Assembly (NCBI GenBank): GCA_017302795.1
Contig: JAFLCB010000006.1
Location: 124,001 to 188,000 of the forward strand
From: Deltaproteobacteria bacterium
GTDB lineage: Bacteria; Bdellovibrionota; Bdellovibrionia; Bdellovibrionales; JAMPXM01
Reading direction: 5' to 3'
DNA length: 64,000 bases
Below, in pieces: positions 3,707 to 8,653 of the stretch. The notes below the pieces were generated by a model. It did not search any database, was not told the DNA's origin, and saw only the letters and a list, made by a program, of their open reading frames with translations. Numbering within the stretch: position 1 is the stretch's first letter; the number at the start of each line of letters is the position of its first letter. The position numbers were made by a program, and so were the translations under genes.

Positions 3707-4261
3707 TCATTCACTATTCAGTGCGCGCTCAACTTCGGCCAATTGCCTTGCTGCCGTTCGAGGGTAGCCCATACCCTCAAGTTGATTGATCCGAATATAG
3801 TTATTCACATTCGAAAAGTCGCGCGTTCCAATCACGATCCTAGTGAAAGGTCGTAAATCCCAGAACTTCTGTTTCGGACCGGGTGCGGGATTCCACCTTG
3901 TGCTTCCCGTTACTGCCATTGCGATCGAACCGGTAACTGCTCGGATGAAGCGTTTGTATCCACTGATATTAAAAAGACGAAGGTGCAAGTGAAGGTGGTT
4001 TCCGACGTTTGCTGTCGAGATGATTTTGACTCGATGAGTTTTAGAGAACTTCGTAAGTATTCGATCAATTCGCCGACGGTTGTGTAATCGCCAAAATGAC
4101 CAATTGCCGCGCGCCCGCGTGGATCGAACAACCAGGTGCATAGAGTAACGAATTGAAAGTGGACGCGGCTTCGAACGGCCTCGGCGCGTGTTCCGGTACG
4201 TGCCGCCGTAGGTGCTGAAGTGGACGGGAAACTTTCGCTGGAGAAGATTTTTGCTTTTCAT
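3707..4261 (-). CDS. REP-associated tyrosine transposase (RAYT, IS200/IS605-like Y1 HUH family)
   Basis: The 184-residue protein has the RAYT hallmarks: an N-terminal GRSKPRPLS...MHLVVRS segment, the HUH metal motif in NVGNHLHLHLRL (about residues 85-96), and a late tyrosine helix, NNYIRINQLEG, whose Tyr would make the covalent bond to DNA. RAYTs are single-copy, domesticated relatives of IS200 transposases that process REP hairpins. Matching DNA is present: REP-like boxes follow at 4364-4406 and a hairpin-rich segment lies at 3509-3702. A perfect hairpin, GAGGGTA (3760-3766) and TACCCTC (3772-3778), lies inside the 3' end of the gene. The ATG at 4261 has no obvious ribosome-binding site. No terminal repeats of a complete insertion sequence were seen. 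Confidence 0.8.
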   Translation of the reverse strand: MKSKNLLQRKFPVHFSTYGGTYRNTRRGRSKPRPLSIRYSMHLVVRSTRARGNWSFWRLHNRRRIDRILTKFSKTHRVKIISTANVGNHLHLHLRLFNISGYKRFIRAVTGSIAMAVTGSTRWNPAPGPKQKFWDLRPFTRIVIGTRDFSNVNNYIRINQLEGMGYPRTAARQLAEVERALNSE

Positions 4262-4363: not shown

Positions 4364-4406
4364 GGTGACCGAAGGTACAAAGTTCGACCCAGTGACCGAA
4401 GGTACC
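4364..4406 (+). repeat. Two REP-like boxes upstream of the RAYT
   Basis: Two direct copies, GGTGACCGAAGGTAC (4364-4378) and AGTGACCGAAGGTACC (4391-4406), lie between the RAYT start and the PAP2 stop. Each contains ACCGAAGGT, whose CGAAG core is known to form an unusually stable DNA mini-hairpin. More copies occur at 4609, 4645 (GAT variant) and 12706. Confidence 0.65.
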
Positions 4407-4416
4407 GGCGGAGTAT

Positions 4417-5181
4417 TTAGCGGTCCACCGGGAGGAAGATTTTAGAGGCGAGGAAAGCTAGGAGGGCACCTGAGAAAACATCGGCGAGGTAATGTTGCTT
4501 AATCAGGACGGCGCTCGCAGCGACAAGAACGCTAGCGGCACCGTGGAGGAAGGCAATCAGAGCACTGGAATCGACGATCGGAGATCGAAAGTACTGGTAA
4601 AGGTGGAGTGACCGAAGGTACCGGTGCGGACTGTCGGCGGAGGCGTGACCGATGGTACTGCTGGCGGCACGTACGTCGGTTCGGGGGGAGTAATGGAGGA
4701 AAAAGAGGGCGAGGATACATGTTTGGGCGACGTGCAAGCTAGGAAAAGTGTTGTACGGATGGTCGGCGCGAAATAGCAGGTCGAGGACAAAGTGGAAGAC
4801 CCCGTCGACAGGTACTGCGACGGGACGATCAATGGGAGTCGGAAAAAGAATGAAGATGACGTAAGCGACGGTGTTAATGGCGGCCTGTGCGAGTGTGAGT
4901 CGGGAAAGCGCGCGAACGTCGCTACACAAGAAAAGTGGCGTAAGGAGAAGCGGAAAGTACAAGACGTAAAATACTACCGTCCACGGAGTAAACGGTAGAA
5001 CGTGATCGAACTTGGTAACAATCGGGAGTGCGGGACGGCCCAGCGGGTTCAGGGTCGCAAATTCATTGGTGCCGAGGTAGCCGATCAAAAGGTAAGCGAG
5101 CCCGAGCAGATACATCCAGCGAGCCCGCGCAATTTCGGAATCCATAAGACCGGCCCGCGACCAACGCGACGGTGTACTCAA
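4417..5181 (-). CDS. PAP2-superfamily membrane phosphatase/transferase
   Basis: A TTG start at 5181 is chosen because AAAGG sits 7 bases upstream and the distance to the preceding gene is 11 bp; an ATG at 5145 is the alternative. The 254-residue protein has about six membrane segments and the PAP2 motifs in order: FPTPIDRP (113-120), PSLH (147-150) and KQHYLADV (228-235). The first motif lacks the usual lysine of soluble PAP2 enzymes, as in phosphatidylinositol/ceramide-type members. Between motifs 2 and 3 there is an extra hydrophilic stretch (about 166-200) encoded by DNA containing two REP-like boxes. It is the last gene of an operon with two PP-loop proteins, so its substrate may be a lipid or polyprenyl phosphate linked to their product (inference). 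Confidence 0.8.
   Translation of the reverse strand: MSTPSRWSRAGLMDSEIARARWMYLLGLAYLLIGYLGTNEFATLNPLGRPALPIVTKFDHVLPFTPWTVVFYVLYFPLLLTPLFLCSDVRALSRLTLAQAAINTVAYVIFILFPTPIDRPVAVPVDGVFHFVLDLLFRADHPYNTFPSLHVAQTCILALFFLHYSPRTDVRAASSTIGHASADSPHRYLRSLHLYQYFRSPIVDSSALIAFLHGAASVLVAASAVLIKQHYLADVFSGALLAFLASKIFLPVDR
4609..4658 (+). repeat. Two REP-like boxes inside the PAP2 coding region
   Basis: GTGACCGAAGGTACC begins at 4609 and a variant, GTGACCGATGGTAC, at 4645. Both have the same orientation as the pair at 4364-4406. On the coding strand they are translated as part of residues about 175-191 of the PAP2 protein, a hydrophilic loop not needed by the family fold. Confidence 0.55.
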
Positions 5182-5192
5182 TTAAATGCCTT

Positions 5193-7586
5193 TCATCGAA
5201 GCGACAAGACCATCGGGTGAAGTGTTCGGTTAGAGGGGACCAGCTGATTTTGAGAAACGATGTAAAGCGGCTCGGTTCGTGGTGACCGATGGTTGTCTGG
5301 GCGGAAGCCGGCGGCGGTGAAGGCCGAGACGATTTCGGGCGCGGCCCAGACTTCGACGGATGAAAAGCGCGAACAAATAGCGGCCGAAGTGCGGAGAGAG
5401 TTGGTGAGTCGAACGAGAAGCTTTTTGGCGTGACCTTGTTTGCGAAACGGTGCTTCGGTGTTTACGCCACGAATTCGAAGCGTGCCGTCGGGCTCAGCAT
5501 CGAGAATTTGAACGCAAGCACTACATAGGGTTTCACCATCAGGCGACTGAAGGGCAACTGCTGCGCGAAAATTTTCAGCGATCAATTGCCGTCCGTGGAT
5601 AGTTTGACGGTAGAACAAATTGCCACCCAGTTTGAGATCTGGCGTCGATGCTTTCGCGCGGGTGAGCCATTCGTCGACTGGTATTGAAACTAGTCCGTTC
5701 GACGCGAAGGCAAGTTCAATTCCATCGAGGCCTCGGCCGAGCTTTACAGTTGAACTGGGTAACGTCACACTTGAGTTCATGGTCGTGACGGATGGCCGCG
5801 CAAGACTCTCGAAATAGCTATCGACTCGACGACGGGCAACATTCGCTTGGCTTACTAAGCGAGTCACAACCTCTGAATCAACGGCAGATTCAAGTTTAGA
5901 CACCCGGCTCTCAACAACACGGGTCCAATTCGTTGGACAGATCTTGCGAAGGCCCTTTGCCACAGCGGCTTGAATTCCGTAATCGCAAAATGGAATTGCA
6001 AGTTCGCTCTCTTTAAACATGGATCGCATCGAAAAGGCCAAACGCGCTTCGCGTTCATTTTCAATCCAAACTAGATTTGGCTCAATTTCGACTCTTGCGT
6101 TCAGAGCGGGTAGAATGAGTCGAGAATCAGACCAGTTGCTGATAGTCCCTTTCGCTGACTTCGCTAGAAGGAAAAGCATCAGCGAATTCCTATCACAAAG
6201 GTCGGTTTCAAAAACTTCAGCGACTACCTCCTGTGGACGAAGTCGAGGGATTTGTGCCGCTCCGATGACAAGTAAGTCGGGCTTCAATGCGAAAAACCAG
6301 CGTGCGATCAGAGACCCATCGTGAAGAAGGTAGTGAGTGGCACCCGTCGACAGCAATTTCTGCATCGAATCTTCGATTTCCATTAGTGCTGCTTCGTCAG
6401 CGGCGTTGGCTTCCACCGAGTTCCAACCCGACAGGATCGGATTCGTGGTGGTTGCCCATTCGCTAGTGAAGATGTCGTCCTCGTCATGGCGTTGCTGCCG
6501 GTGACGGCCATCGCGACCGATGGTAAAGGTCCAGTCACCGTGTTGGAAGACCCCAGGAGTTTCGGGCCGTAAACCCCGATAAAGAGAATAGACATCTAAG
6601 TACCAGTGCCCTTCACATTCGGGCATCATTTCGTTCAAGCGCTTGCGCCAAAGATCATGTTCATTTTCGATAGGTTCAAAACCATGGAACTTCGGTCGAG
6701 CCTCGAGCTCTGGATAGTCGTGTAAGACAATTTCGCGTTTTGAAGAGCGAGTTCCCAGTTTCCCGACGCGCGAATGGGAAACTAGTTCGTGTAGGATCGG
6801 GTTTGTTCGAAGCTGCGCTTCGAACTGCTCGGGGAGAAACTGAAAAAAACCGGGAACCGCGGGAGCATTCCGCGCTATGAAATAGCGAAAGAGTCCGCAA
6901 AGATTTTCAGTTTCGGCGATTTTCCACATCGAAGGCACGTAAGGACTTACGCCTGGTTGGTAGTCGTTTGACGTCTCCTTTACCAAATGTATTTCGCCTT
7001 GTCCGATCACTGGGAGGTAGCGCGCATTTTCGCGCAGCATTTCGCCGCAAAGCCAAGCCTGACAGATGACGATTGGACTAACTATCTGGGTCTCTTTTGC
7101 CAAAGCCAGAAACTCTGGACTATTCCAAAATTTAACAGCATCAAGTTTTCGACTATGAAACTGAAGGCCCATCGGAGAATGTCCCAAAGTTGATAGGCGA
7201 TCCTTAAAGCGATCAACAAAGTCCGTGTCATGGCGATTGACGTCGCCTTCAAGGACAAGAGTGGCAATGTCGATTGGAAAGTTTGAATCCAACTCTTCTC
7301 TTGCCTCTAAAAAAGCTACCAATACGATCTCGCTATCAAGCCCACCGCTGTAGCAGATTAATGGTTTTAATTCCTGATCGCGGCAGTTTTTTAAAATCGT
7401 CAGTGCAGCAGCTTTATTGGCTTCTCGCCATGACGCGTATTTCGTTGTTGCTCGACCGTATTTTGCGACGAATAGGTCTTCAGGATTTTTTCTGAGGCAC
7501 ATCCATTCGACATTCTCATTGGTCAGCGCTCGGCCGGGCCTTGCATAGCCAAACTGAAAATGTTGCTGATTTGTGTAGTCGAACAT
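5193..7586 (-). CDS. PP-loop ATPase (asparagine-synthase/QueC-like) fused to a C-terminal GNAT acetyltransferase
   Basis: The 797-residue protein starts at an ATG 2 bp after the stop of its paralogue. Residues 1-350 match that paralogue along their length: HFQFGY near the N-terminus, the adenylate-forming PP-loop SGGLDSE (80-86), KETQIVSP, PGFFQF and RPKFHGFE. PP-loop enzymes activate a carbonyl group with ATP, releasing pyrophosphate, before amide or similar bond formation. Residues ~360-660 are an unrecognised region. Residues ~640-780 read as a GNAT domain, with the acetyl-CoA loop IRGVNTEAPFRKQGHAKKLL (706-725) and a late SAFTAAGFRP strand typical of GNATs. No glutaminase domain is present, so it differs from true asparagine synthases. 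The substrate is unknown. Confidence 0.7.
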   Translation of the reverse strand: MFDYTNQQHFQFGYARPGRALTNENVEWMCLRKNPEDLFVAKYGRATTKYASWREANKAAALTILKNCRDQELKPLICYSGGLDSEIVLVAFLEAREELDSNFPIDIATLVLEGDVNRHDTDFVDRFKDRLSTLGHSPMGLQFHSRKLDAVKFWNSPEFLALAKETQIVSPIVICQAWLCGEMLRENARYLPVIGQGEIHLVKETSNDYQPGVSPYVPSMWKIAETENLCGLFRYFIARNAPAVPGFFQFLPEQFEAQLRTNPILHELVSHSRVGKLGTRSSKREIVLHDYPELEARPKFHGFEPIENEHDLWRKRLNEMMPECEGHWYLDVYSLYRGLRPETPGVFQHGDWTFTIGRDGRHRQQRHDEDDIFTSEWATTTNPILSGWNSVEANAADEAALMEIEDSMQKLLSTGATHYLLHDGSLIARWFFALKPDLLVIGAAQIPRLRPQEVVAEVFETDLCDRNSLMLFLLAKSAKGTISNWSDSRLILPALNARVEIEPNLVWIENEREARLAFSMRSMFKESELAIPFCDYGIQAAVAKGLRKICPTNWTRVVESRVSKLESAVDSEVVTRLVSQANVARRRVDSYFESLARPSVTTMNSSVTLPSSTVKLGRGLDGIELAFASNGLVSIPVDEWLTRAKASTPDLKLGGNLFYRQTIHGRQLIAENFRAAVALQSPDGETLCSACVQILDAEPDGTLRIRGVNTEAPFRKQGHAKKLLVRLTNSLRTSAAICSRFSSVEVWAAPEIVSAFTAAGFRPDNHRSPRTEPLYIVSQNQLVPSNRTLHPMVLSLR

Positions 7587-7588
7587 TT

Positions 7589-8653
7589 TTAAAACGGCCT
7601 TTGAAGCTGAAATCGATAGCTAGTTGGCTCGTCGAGGGTTTGTCGAGCCGAGTGCACAGGAGAAACGATTTGTTTCGGAGGATAGATATCAGGTTGTGGA
7701 GAGAGGTCCCTAAGCAAAGTGAACACCGGAGTGGAGAACGCCCAGTCGGAATCCGGAAACATCTCATAGAGATATTTTCGAATCTCTAGGTCGCGAGCGG
7801 AGACTTTTTCAAAGCCAGAATATTTGGGCCTCACGCTCAATTCAAAGTGCTGTCGATAAAATCGGAGTTTTGAGGAAACAGAATCTAGTTTCCCAGGAAT
7901 TCGATCATTCCATAGTTCGACGGCAAGCGGATCAACCAGCCAAGAAAGCATTATTTCCGGCGTGTACTGAAAAAAGCCAGGACAACCATCCCGGCCGCGG
8001 ACAAGAAAGTGCCGGTACCAGGCCGCGATCTTTTCTTTTTCGATCAGTTCCCAGTGTGACCGAAGGTAGTTGGTTTCGGTGATGGACTGGTCGGGAACCT
8101 TTCGCTTCGCGAGGTAGTGTTCGCCGCTACCAAGAACACAATACCCGTCAATCTGATCAATCAGCCACATCGTCGAAAGCAGTTGCGGACTTACACATTG
8201 TGTTTCGCGTGCGTAGGTCATTGCCTGCGTTTGCCAGAATTCCCGCAAGTCGAGATCGTAAAATCGATACGGAACTTTTAAAAGCTCACAAGTCGAAACG
8301 GCCCATGCGAAATCGTGGACATTGAGATCGTCATGGAAACGGAGGATCGCAACCGACACGTCGATTCCACTTTCTACGAATGCCCGAAGAGTGACCTCGC
8401 TATCCACTCCACCTGAGAAAAGGACAACAATGGGAAGCTGGGTGTTTCGACGAATAACTCGGGCCGTTTCACTGCATTCGGCGCGAAAGGAAAGCGGCAT
8501 TCGTTGGCTTCGGCCGTAGCGAACCGTCCATAGATCGGTGCTACTTTCACGAGCAGTGAAGGGCTGAAATGCGCCTCCTCGTTCGTAGCCAAATTCGAAG
8601 TGCTGACCGTGGGTCAACAAAGGTGTGTTGCGGTTTATCGATGAAGCTGCCAC
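7589..8653 (-). CDS. Stand-alone PP-loop ATPase paralogue
   Basis: The GTG at 8653 opens a 354-residue protein, probably the first gene of the operon. It has HFEFGYERGG near the N-terminus, the PP-loop SGGVDSE (80-86), RETQCVSP, a GSGEHYL motif (GQGEIHL in the paralogue), PGFFQY and RPKYSGFE. These are at the same places as in the neighbouring fusion protein, so the two arose by duplication. It ends shortly after the shared region and has no GNAT or glutaminase part. The pair may form a heterodimer or act on successive steps (inference). The start codon is uncertain because no strong ribosome-binding site is visible. Confidence 0.7.
   Translation of the reverse strand: MAASSINRNTPLLTHGQHFEFGYERGGAFQPFTARESSTDLWTVRYGRSQRMPLSFRAECSETARVIRRNTQLPIVVLFSGGVDSEVTLRAFVESGIDVSVAILRFHDDLNVHDFAWAVSTCELLKVPYRFYDLDLREFWQTQAMTYARETQCVSPQLLSTMWLIDQIDGYCVLGSGEHYLAKRKVPDQSITETNYLRSHWELIEKEKIAAWYRHFLVRGRDGCPGFFQYTPEIMLSWLVDPLAVELWNDRIPGKLDSVSSKLRFYRQHFELSVRPKYSGFEKVSARDLEIRKYLYEMFPDSDWAFSTPVFTLLRDLSPQPDIYPPKQIVSPVHSARQTLDEPTSYRFQLQRPF

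Follow-up and report, generated by a model that had tools for sequence, protein, structure and literature searches.

Asparagine Synthetase-Like Enzymes and a Proposed Role in Specialized Metabolism

Domains of the asparagine synthetase type activate a carboxylate as an acyl-AMP and then join it to an amine. In fosfazinomycin biosynthesis, an asparagine synthetase homolog, FzmA, belongs to a pathway that also employs an acetyltransferase (PMC6133997). Another example is the nitrile synthetase PesC, which forms a peptide nitrile/amide and, like the lasso-type cyclases, is an asparagine synthetase-like enzyme of specialized metabolism found beside hydroxylases (PMC13060819). The locus described here recalls both systems. 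As with FzmA/FzmQ, a synthetase-like protein appears alongside an N-acetyltransferase; however, FzmA is treated as a homolog of a bifunctional glutaminase-containing enzyme, its partner is encoded by a separate gene, and the pathway has neither an inactive synthetase nor a PAP2 phosphatase (PMC6133997).

The locus lies in a 64,000-nucleotide stretch of DNA, hereafter the window, taken from contig JAFLCB010000006.1 (positions 124,001 to 188,000). Its host, an uncultured bacterium related to predatory Bdellovibrio, belongs to the Bdellovibrionota, a phylum whose reputation rests on predation more than on specialized metabolism. The operon is proposed to encode the central enzymes of a small pathway that makes or decorates a specialized amide metabolite, a proposal with about an even chance of being correct.

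A Three-Gene Operon Encoding Two PP-Loop Paralogs

Three genes run co-directionally on the minus strand between window positions 8653 and 4417: gene A (8653..7589), gene B (7586..5193) and a gene for a predicted PAP2-superfamily membrane phosphatase (5181..4417; 254 aa). The gaps between them measure 2 bp (A/B) and 11 bp (B/PAP2). This arrangement was proposed in a preliminary description of the sequence; its open reading frames were confirmed, and the A-B-PAP2 order recurs in a related genome (G002; L031), with 4-bp overlaps at both junctions. A, a protein of 354 aa with a GTG start, is a stand-alone PP-loop synthetase-like protein bearing the motifs SGGVDSE (residues 80-86), PGFFQY and RPKYSGFE. 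B is a 797-aa fusion. Its residues 1-345 (6552..7586, minus strand) are predicted from the model and its fold matches to form a live PP-loop synthetase domain, with SGGLDSE at residues 80-86, and are followed by a putative degenerate PP-loop synthetase domain (residues 346-620; 5727..6551, minus strand) and a GNAT acyltransferase domain (residues 621-797; 5196..5726, minus strand).

A and B are paralogs, as previously suggested, with 31% identity across 343 residues (E = 2e-42). They were also said to share their motifs at the same positions, which is true of SGGxDSE, at 80-86 in both, but not of PGFFQ[YF] and RPK[YF]xGFE, which are common to the two proteins and differ by about 20 residues in numbering. 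The reported absence of a glutaminase was likewise confirmed, because each protein has room for just about 75 residues ahead of the PP-loop motif, and no profile detected an N-terminal class II (Ntn) glutaminase domain, with its catalytic Cys2, in either. Nitrogen would therefore have to come from free ammonia or from an amine substrate.

Fold and Family Identity of A and B

The model of the B PP-loop domain (pLDDT mostly 90 or more) matches asparagine synthetase (ASNS) with Z 15.1 and rmsd 3.9 over 271 residues, and matches beta-lactam synthetase (Z 13.8) and carbapenam synthetase (Z 12.2) over about 250-270 residues. Identity in these matches (Z 12-15) is 11-13%, which shows fold, not function. 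From these models, ATP-dependent amide formation is the most likely activity of A and B, with thiolation or another adenylation as possible alternatives. Both proteins carry SGGxDS on a HUP fold at residues 80-85, the signature of the N-type ATP pyrophosphatase (PP-loop) superfamily, and this motif and the PP-loop domain fold are what they have in common with asparagine synthetase B/ASNS and the beta-lactam and carbapenam synthetases. They differ from all of these in having no Ntn glutaminase, in their low identity and in reaching no family model. The A/B family also has C-terminal motifs of its own (FFQYTPE, K and RxKYxGFE), and B has a fused dead synthetase copy and a GNAT domain. Residues K262, R275, K277 and E282 (A numbering) are near-invariant in the family; the synthetase site of beta-lactam and carbapenam synthetases has a catalytic Lys and a Tyr-Glu dyad.

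No family in Pfam, PHROGs, NCBIfam or PADLOC properly fits A or B. B (P0002) has no Pfam match whatsoever, and the Pfam matches of A are confined to the PP-loop regions of known families. The best of these is to the MnmA HUP-domain model (E 2.7e-4; 21.1 bits against a cut-off of 20.6; 61 residues); the QueC model is matched at E 0.005 over about 75 residues, with 16.7 bits against a cut-off of 22. Models of whole enzymes score far lower than their cut-offs: 13.6 bits against 150.3 for QueC (NCBIfam), 12.1 against 280 for QatC, 20.7 against 284 for MnmA and 13.3 against 606 for TilS. The QatC and QueC matches (E 0.01-0.07) cover the PP-loop region only, and no asparagine synthetase model in Pfam or NCBIfam was reported for A or B up to E 1. 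Thus, with scores far under the cut-offs of these families or no match, A and B are not ordinary QueC or AsnB proteins. What A has in common with QueC and QatC is a PP-loop region of weak significance, whereas A and B are longer and have a different C-terminal half.

For scans of the collections a second family alignment (A2) was used, the first (A1) being too diverse. The family profile is matched by PP-loop enzymes of several families, the best being NAD synthetase (E 4.5e-5; 70 positions), and the likeness of the A/B family to known enzymes is limited to the PP-loop region. A and B define an amide synthetase-like family that lies outside the Pfam, NCBIfam, PHROGs and PADLOC models checked. 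No description of this family was found in the open-licence literature.

Many PP-loop enzymes modify tRNA, and the DTW-domain family is also known for tRNA modification. A and B could accordingly be tRNA-modifying proteins like TilS, MnmA or TtcA, with a GNAT like TmcA, an idea encouraged by the MnmA HUP domain as best Pfam match of A and by a DTW-domain gene in the cluster of a related genome (G012). However, neither protein has a recognized RNA-binding domain, amide synthetases lead the fold matches, the PP-loop family is scattered through the order (24 of 141 genomes), and its companions are desaturases, hydroxylases and PAP2 proteins. A role in tRNA modification is improbable, and amide formation remains the preferred reading of the two synthetase domains.

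A Probable Degenerate Synthetase and a GNAT Domain in B

The preliminary description took about 300 unrecognized residues in the middle of B for a new domain. Residues 346-620 indeed have no family match. Folded alone, they give a low-confidence model (mean pLDDT 52; core 70-83) whose 13 best fold matches are all PP-loop enzymes, among them asparagine synthetase (Z 8.4), beta-lactam synthetase (7.6), LarE (6.7), carbapenam synthetase (6.6) and the ArtA nitrile synthetase; the match on ASNS starts at ASNS residue 226. In a full-length profile-profile comparison, the middle of B scored 25.8 against the PP-loop family, and all 200 column-shuffled controls were lower (maxima 19.3 and 22.8). This comparison, which included the N-terminal signature, came after a test with a trimmed core that was not significant (2 of 60 shuffles equally high), and only the full-length profile separated from the shuffles. 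A stand-alone relative of the region (L093:1735-2586) is also matched by the PP-loop family HMM, with E 2.1e-4 and a score that none of 200 shuffled sequences reached.

In the alignment of this region, a 4-residue deletion turns SGGxDSE into HDGS (as in B) or DDGS, and several rows retain the aromatic-x-F signature, D-I/L-F and LNxHD-like features. The idea of a wholly new domain was dropped, given the PP-loop fold matches and a full-length profile score above 200 of 200 shuffles. Residues 346-620 are instead, very probably, a third PP-loop synthetase that has degenerated, with a deletion within its PP-loop motif, and B thus reads as a live synthetase, a dead synthetase and a GNAT. Pseudoenzymes often hold or pair with active relatives, and the dead copy probably does the same with the live synthetase domains. 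Such a live-plus-dead pairing of synthetases is unusual. The fusion predicts which partners work together, and the pseudo-synthetase offers a testable case of enzymes that use inactive partners.

The C-terminal GNAT named in the preliminary description is well founded. B itself does not match the Pfam GNAT model, but its ortholog in L031 matches PF00583 (E = 5.8e-5), and residues 630-797 of B match GNAT structures with Z about 12 over about 140 residues. The acyl-CoA motif (R/Q)xxGx(G/A) is found in B as RKQGHA. Separate relatives of this GNAT adjoin B-type genes at L035:521-1027 (G137; E 1.5e-9) and L039:8956-9474 (G053; E 6.7e-8). Stand-alone relatives of the middle of B are encoded at L035:1017-1868 (the same gene as L093:1735-2586; E 0.0012) and, more weakly, at L039:9428-10183. 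In another family of the order, relatives of the GNAT (L035, L039) and of the dead domain (L035) are therefore separate genes beside B, and the fusion of the host's family joins parts that are encoded separately elsewhere.

Conservation and Partnership of A and B

The closest named carriers of the same genes are metagenome-assembled genomes labeled Bdellovibrionota, Bdellovibrionaceae or Bdellovibrionales. Orthologs of A with 49-67% identity are encoded in G002, G012 and G001. The cluster of G012 comprises A and B, then a DTW gene, a HisC/CobD-like PLP enzyme, a GNAT-like and a HAD-like protein, a 2-oxoacid-dehydrogenase-type acyltransferase and PAP2; two of its small genes were called GNAT and HAD phosphatase from motifs alone, without a profile match. 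G001 has A together with the same four enzymes, and its PAP2 gene terminates a different contig. In G004, the gene after B is PAP2 and A is on another contig; both PP-loop genes (L033:6131-8652 and L034:6953-7986) are broken by frameshift or deletion, and the PAP2 gene is intact, reflecting either joint decay or assembly error. A further genome (G009; L158:224-3992) packs genes for a PLP enzyme and for GNAT-like, HAD-like, PAP2 and acyltransferase proteins into a compact operon on a 4.2-kb contig that lacks A and B. These arrangements are most simply explained by a larger ancestral cluster, of which the lineage of the window kept A, B and PAP2.

In a tree of 55 members of the PP-loop family, the B sequences group in one clade (support 100/99) that spans eight genomes and three families. 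All eight B-carrying genomes also possess a separate A-type gene, which in five of them adjoins B or lies no more than about 2 kb away. A and B are old partners. Directly upstream of one B-type gene, a 518-aa protein (L036:3377-4933) carries an SGGLDTR motif and has weak asparagine synthetase/macrolactam cyclase matches (E 0.03-0.16).

Neighbors on the MscL/DUF481/RmuC side are common to most carrier genomes of the host's family, and the operon site is therefore fixed in that family. This bears on a proposed kinship with QatC/QueC anti-phage defense systems, for which the very weak QatC and QueC matches, the patchy distribution of the family and the presence of relatives on virus contigs might speak. 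However, those matches span the PP-loop region only, no QatA, QatB or QatD-like partners occur, the neighbors are PAP2 and MscL, and the locus occupies a conserved chromosomal site. A defense function is thus highly improbable.

Companion Genes and Relatives on Virus Contigs

Relatives of A and B are embedded among clustered tailoring genes. In the 14 genomes surveyed, 26 Asp/Asn-hydroxylase matches were counted, 10 of which have a family member within 10 kb (0.27 expected; P 4.5e-13); of 58 desaturase matches, 8 have one within 6 kb (0.43 expected; P 2e-8). Because the P values assume that clustered genes are independent, they overstate the significance; even so, the matches are spread over 7 and 6 separate contigs, respectively. 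Genes for B12-radical SAM enzymes, SDR and HTTM proteins and additional GNATs also adjoin family members. The tailoring genes of the relatives are absent from the window, and this species may therefore make a different product or have a reduced pathway. Elsewhere in the window's genome (G000:C3:194856-195916 and G000:C6:108482-111618), Asp/Asn-hydroxylase and fatty-acid desaturase genes occur together without PP-loop genes.

PP-loop relatives with 37-44% identity are also present on IMG/VR virus contigs, where they adjoin genes for GNATs, Asp/Asn-hydroxylases, desaturases, radical SAM enzymes and sulfotransferases. One such contig (L101:4531-8087) has a set similar to that in B, with a live PP-loop protein (SGGNESE), two GNAT-like proteins, an Asp/Asn-hydroxylase and a motif-less PP-loop paralog, all as separate genes. 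An adjoining terminase confirms a phage in one of ten tested viral records, the others resting on the IMG/VR classification. Searches of annotated phages with P0001 and P0002 (B), of annotated phage records with three viral-contig PP-loop proteins, and of plasmids with P0002 gave no match. Asp/Asn hydroxylase, desaturase and radical SAM genes have been reported in pelagiphage genomes (PMC7029224). Since similar companions surround the family on virus contigs and in cellular clusters, the product of one system would inform the other.

Asparagine synthetase-like enzymes also act in RiPP pathways, where PesC and the lasso-type cyclases work on ribosomal peptides (PMC13060819). By analogy, A and B might amidate or cross-link a ribosomal peptide that the GNAT then caps. 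Small Tat-signal, Cys-rich proteins adjoin distant family members (L128:9309-9800, L134:6652-6999 and L047:8116-8469), two of them with the same leader, and are possible peptide substrates. However, their adjacency to the family is not significant (5/85 vs 11/421, P = 0.11), and the A-B-PAP2 operons of the host's family showed no gene for a likely precursor peptide, which sets these operons apart from PesC and the lasso-type cyclases. A ribosomal peptide is accordingly an unlikely substrate.

A Putative Pathway to an Amide Metabolite

The favored reading remains a small pathway to a specialized amide metabolite, the steps of which may be ordered as follows. A and domain 1 of B would each activate a carboxylate with ATP, forming an acyl-adenylate and pyrophosphate. 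The activated carboxylate would then be joined to an amine, or to ammonia supplied by another enzyme, and the GNAT of B could acylate an amine on either the substrate or the product. PAP2 may remove or exchange a phosphate at the membrane, on a lipid-linked product or on an intermediate. In relatives, Asp/Asn-type hydroxylases, desaturases, B12-radical SAM and PLP enzymes, HAD-like proteins and acyltransferases would provide further tailoring. Because relatives add such enzymes, the family resembles an exchangeable module for amide formation in specialized metabolism.

A bolder version is unlikely: that the operon represents an undescribed module in which two live glutaminase-free synthetases depend on a GNAT-fused dead synthetase as an essential partner, that Bdellovibrionota use it to produce amide metabolites or lipopeptides of a new class, and that the related modules of phages direct the synthesis of similar compounds in infected cells.

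The PAP2 Partner and Associated Repeats

The PAP2 protein matches PF01569 at E = 2.3e-6 (27.8 bits against a cut-off of 27.2). It carries PSLH and KQHYLAD, and RP, PSLH and H...D are kept in four orthologs. Against the PAP2 signature of KX6RP, PSxH and SRx5HxxxD, Leu112 stands in place of the lysine, and the third motif shows no SR. Orthologs with at least 60% identity were found in five genomes (G000, G001, G002, G004 and G012), precisely those members of the host's family that have A. The expected conservation of PAP2 with the PP-loop genes is thus seen within the host's family (5/5 carriers) and fails in the other families carrying A and B. Because the linkage is confined to this family, the unit proper consists of A, B, the dead synthetase and the GNAT, and PAP2 is a family-level partner. 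The preliminary picture of an operon with GNAT and PAP2, kept as a unit in relatives and suited to making a small or lipid-linked product, survives apart from the new domain in B.

The clustering of desaturases and Asp/Asn-hydroxylases with the family resembles the tailoring of ornithine lipids. This clustering, the PAP2 partner and an acyltransferase-like gene that overlaps an A gene (L038; weak TIGR03694 match, E 0.0034) might point to envelope-lipid remodeling, in which an amino-acyl or N-acyl lipid head group would be made or modified and PAP2 would serve as a lipid phosphatase or transferase. This is rather unlikely, as the window operon contains no lipid-synthesis enzyme, PAP2 is missing from A/B carriers outside the host's family, and similar sets are carried on virus contigs, an odd setting for lipid synthesis.

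The PAP2 protein of the window also has an insertion of about 23 aa that is absent in three aligned orthologs. A 13-mer, TACCTTCGGTCAC, occurs at window positions 4365-4377, 4392-4404, 4608-4620 and 8056-8068, in or just after the operon, and these are four of the five copies in the 4.23-Mb genome. One exact copy is inside the PAP2 insertion and one near copy is in or beside it. Assignment of the 13-mer as a REP element was dropped, as the genome holds only five copies. The repeats are adjoined by an IS200/REP-associated transposase-like gene (window 3707-4261), whose matches are below cut-offs.
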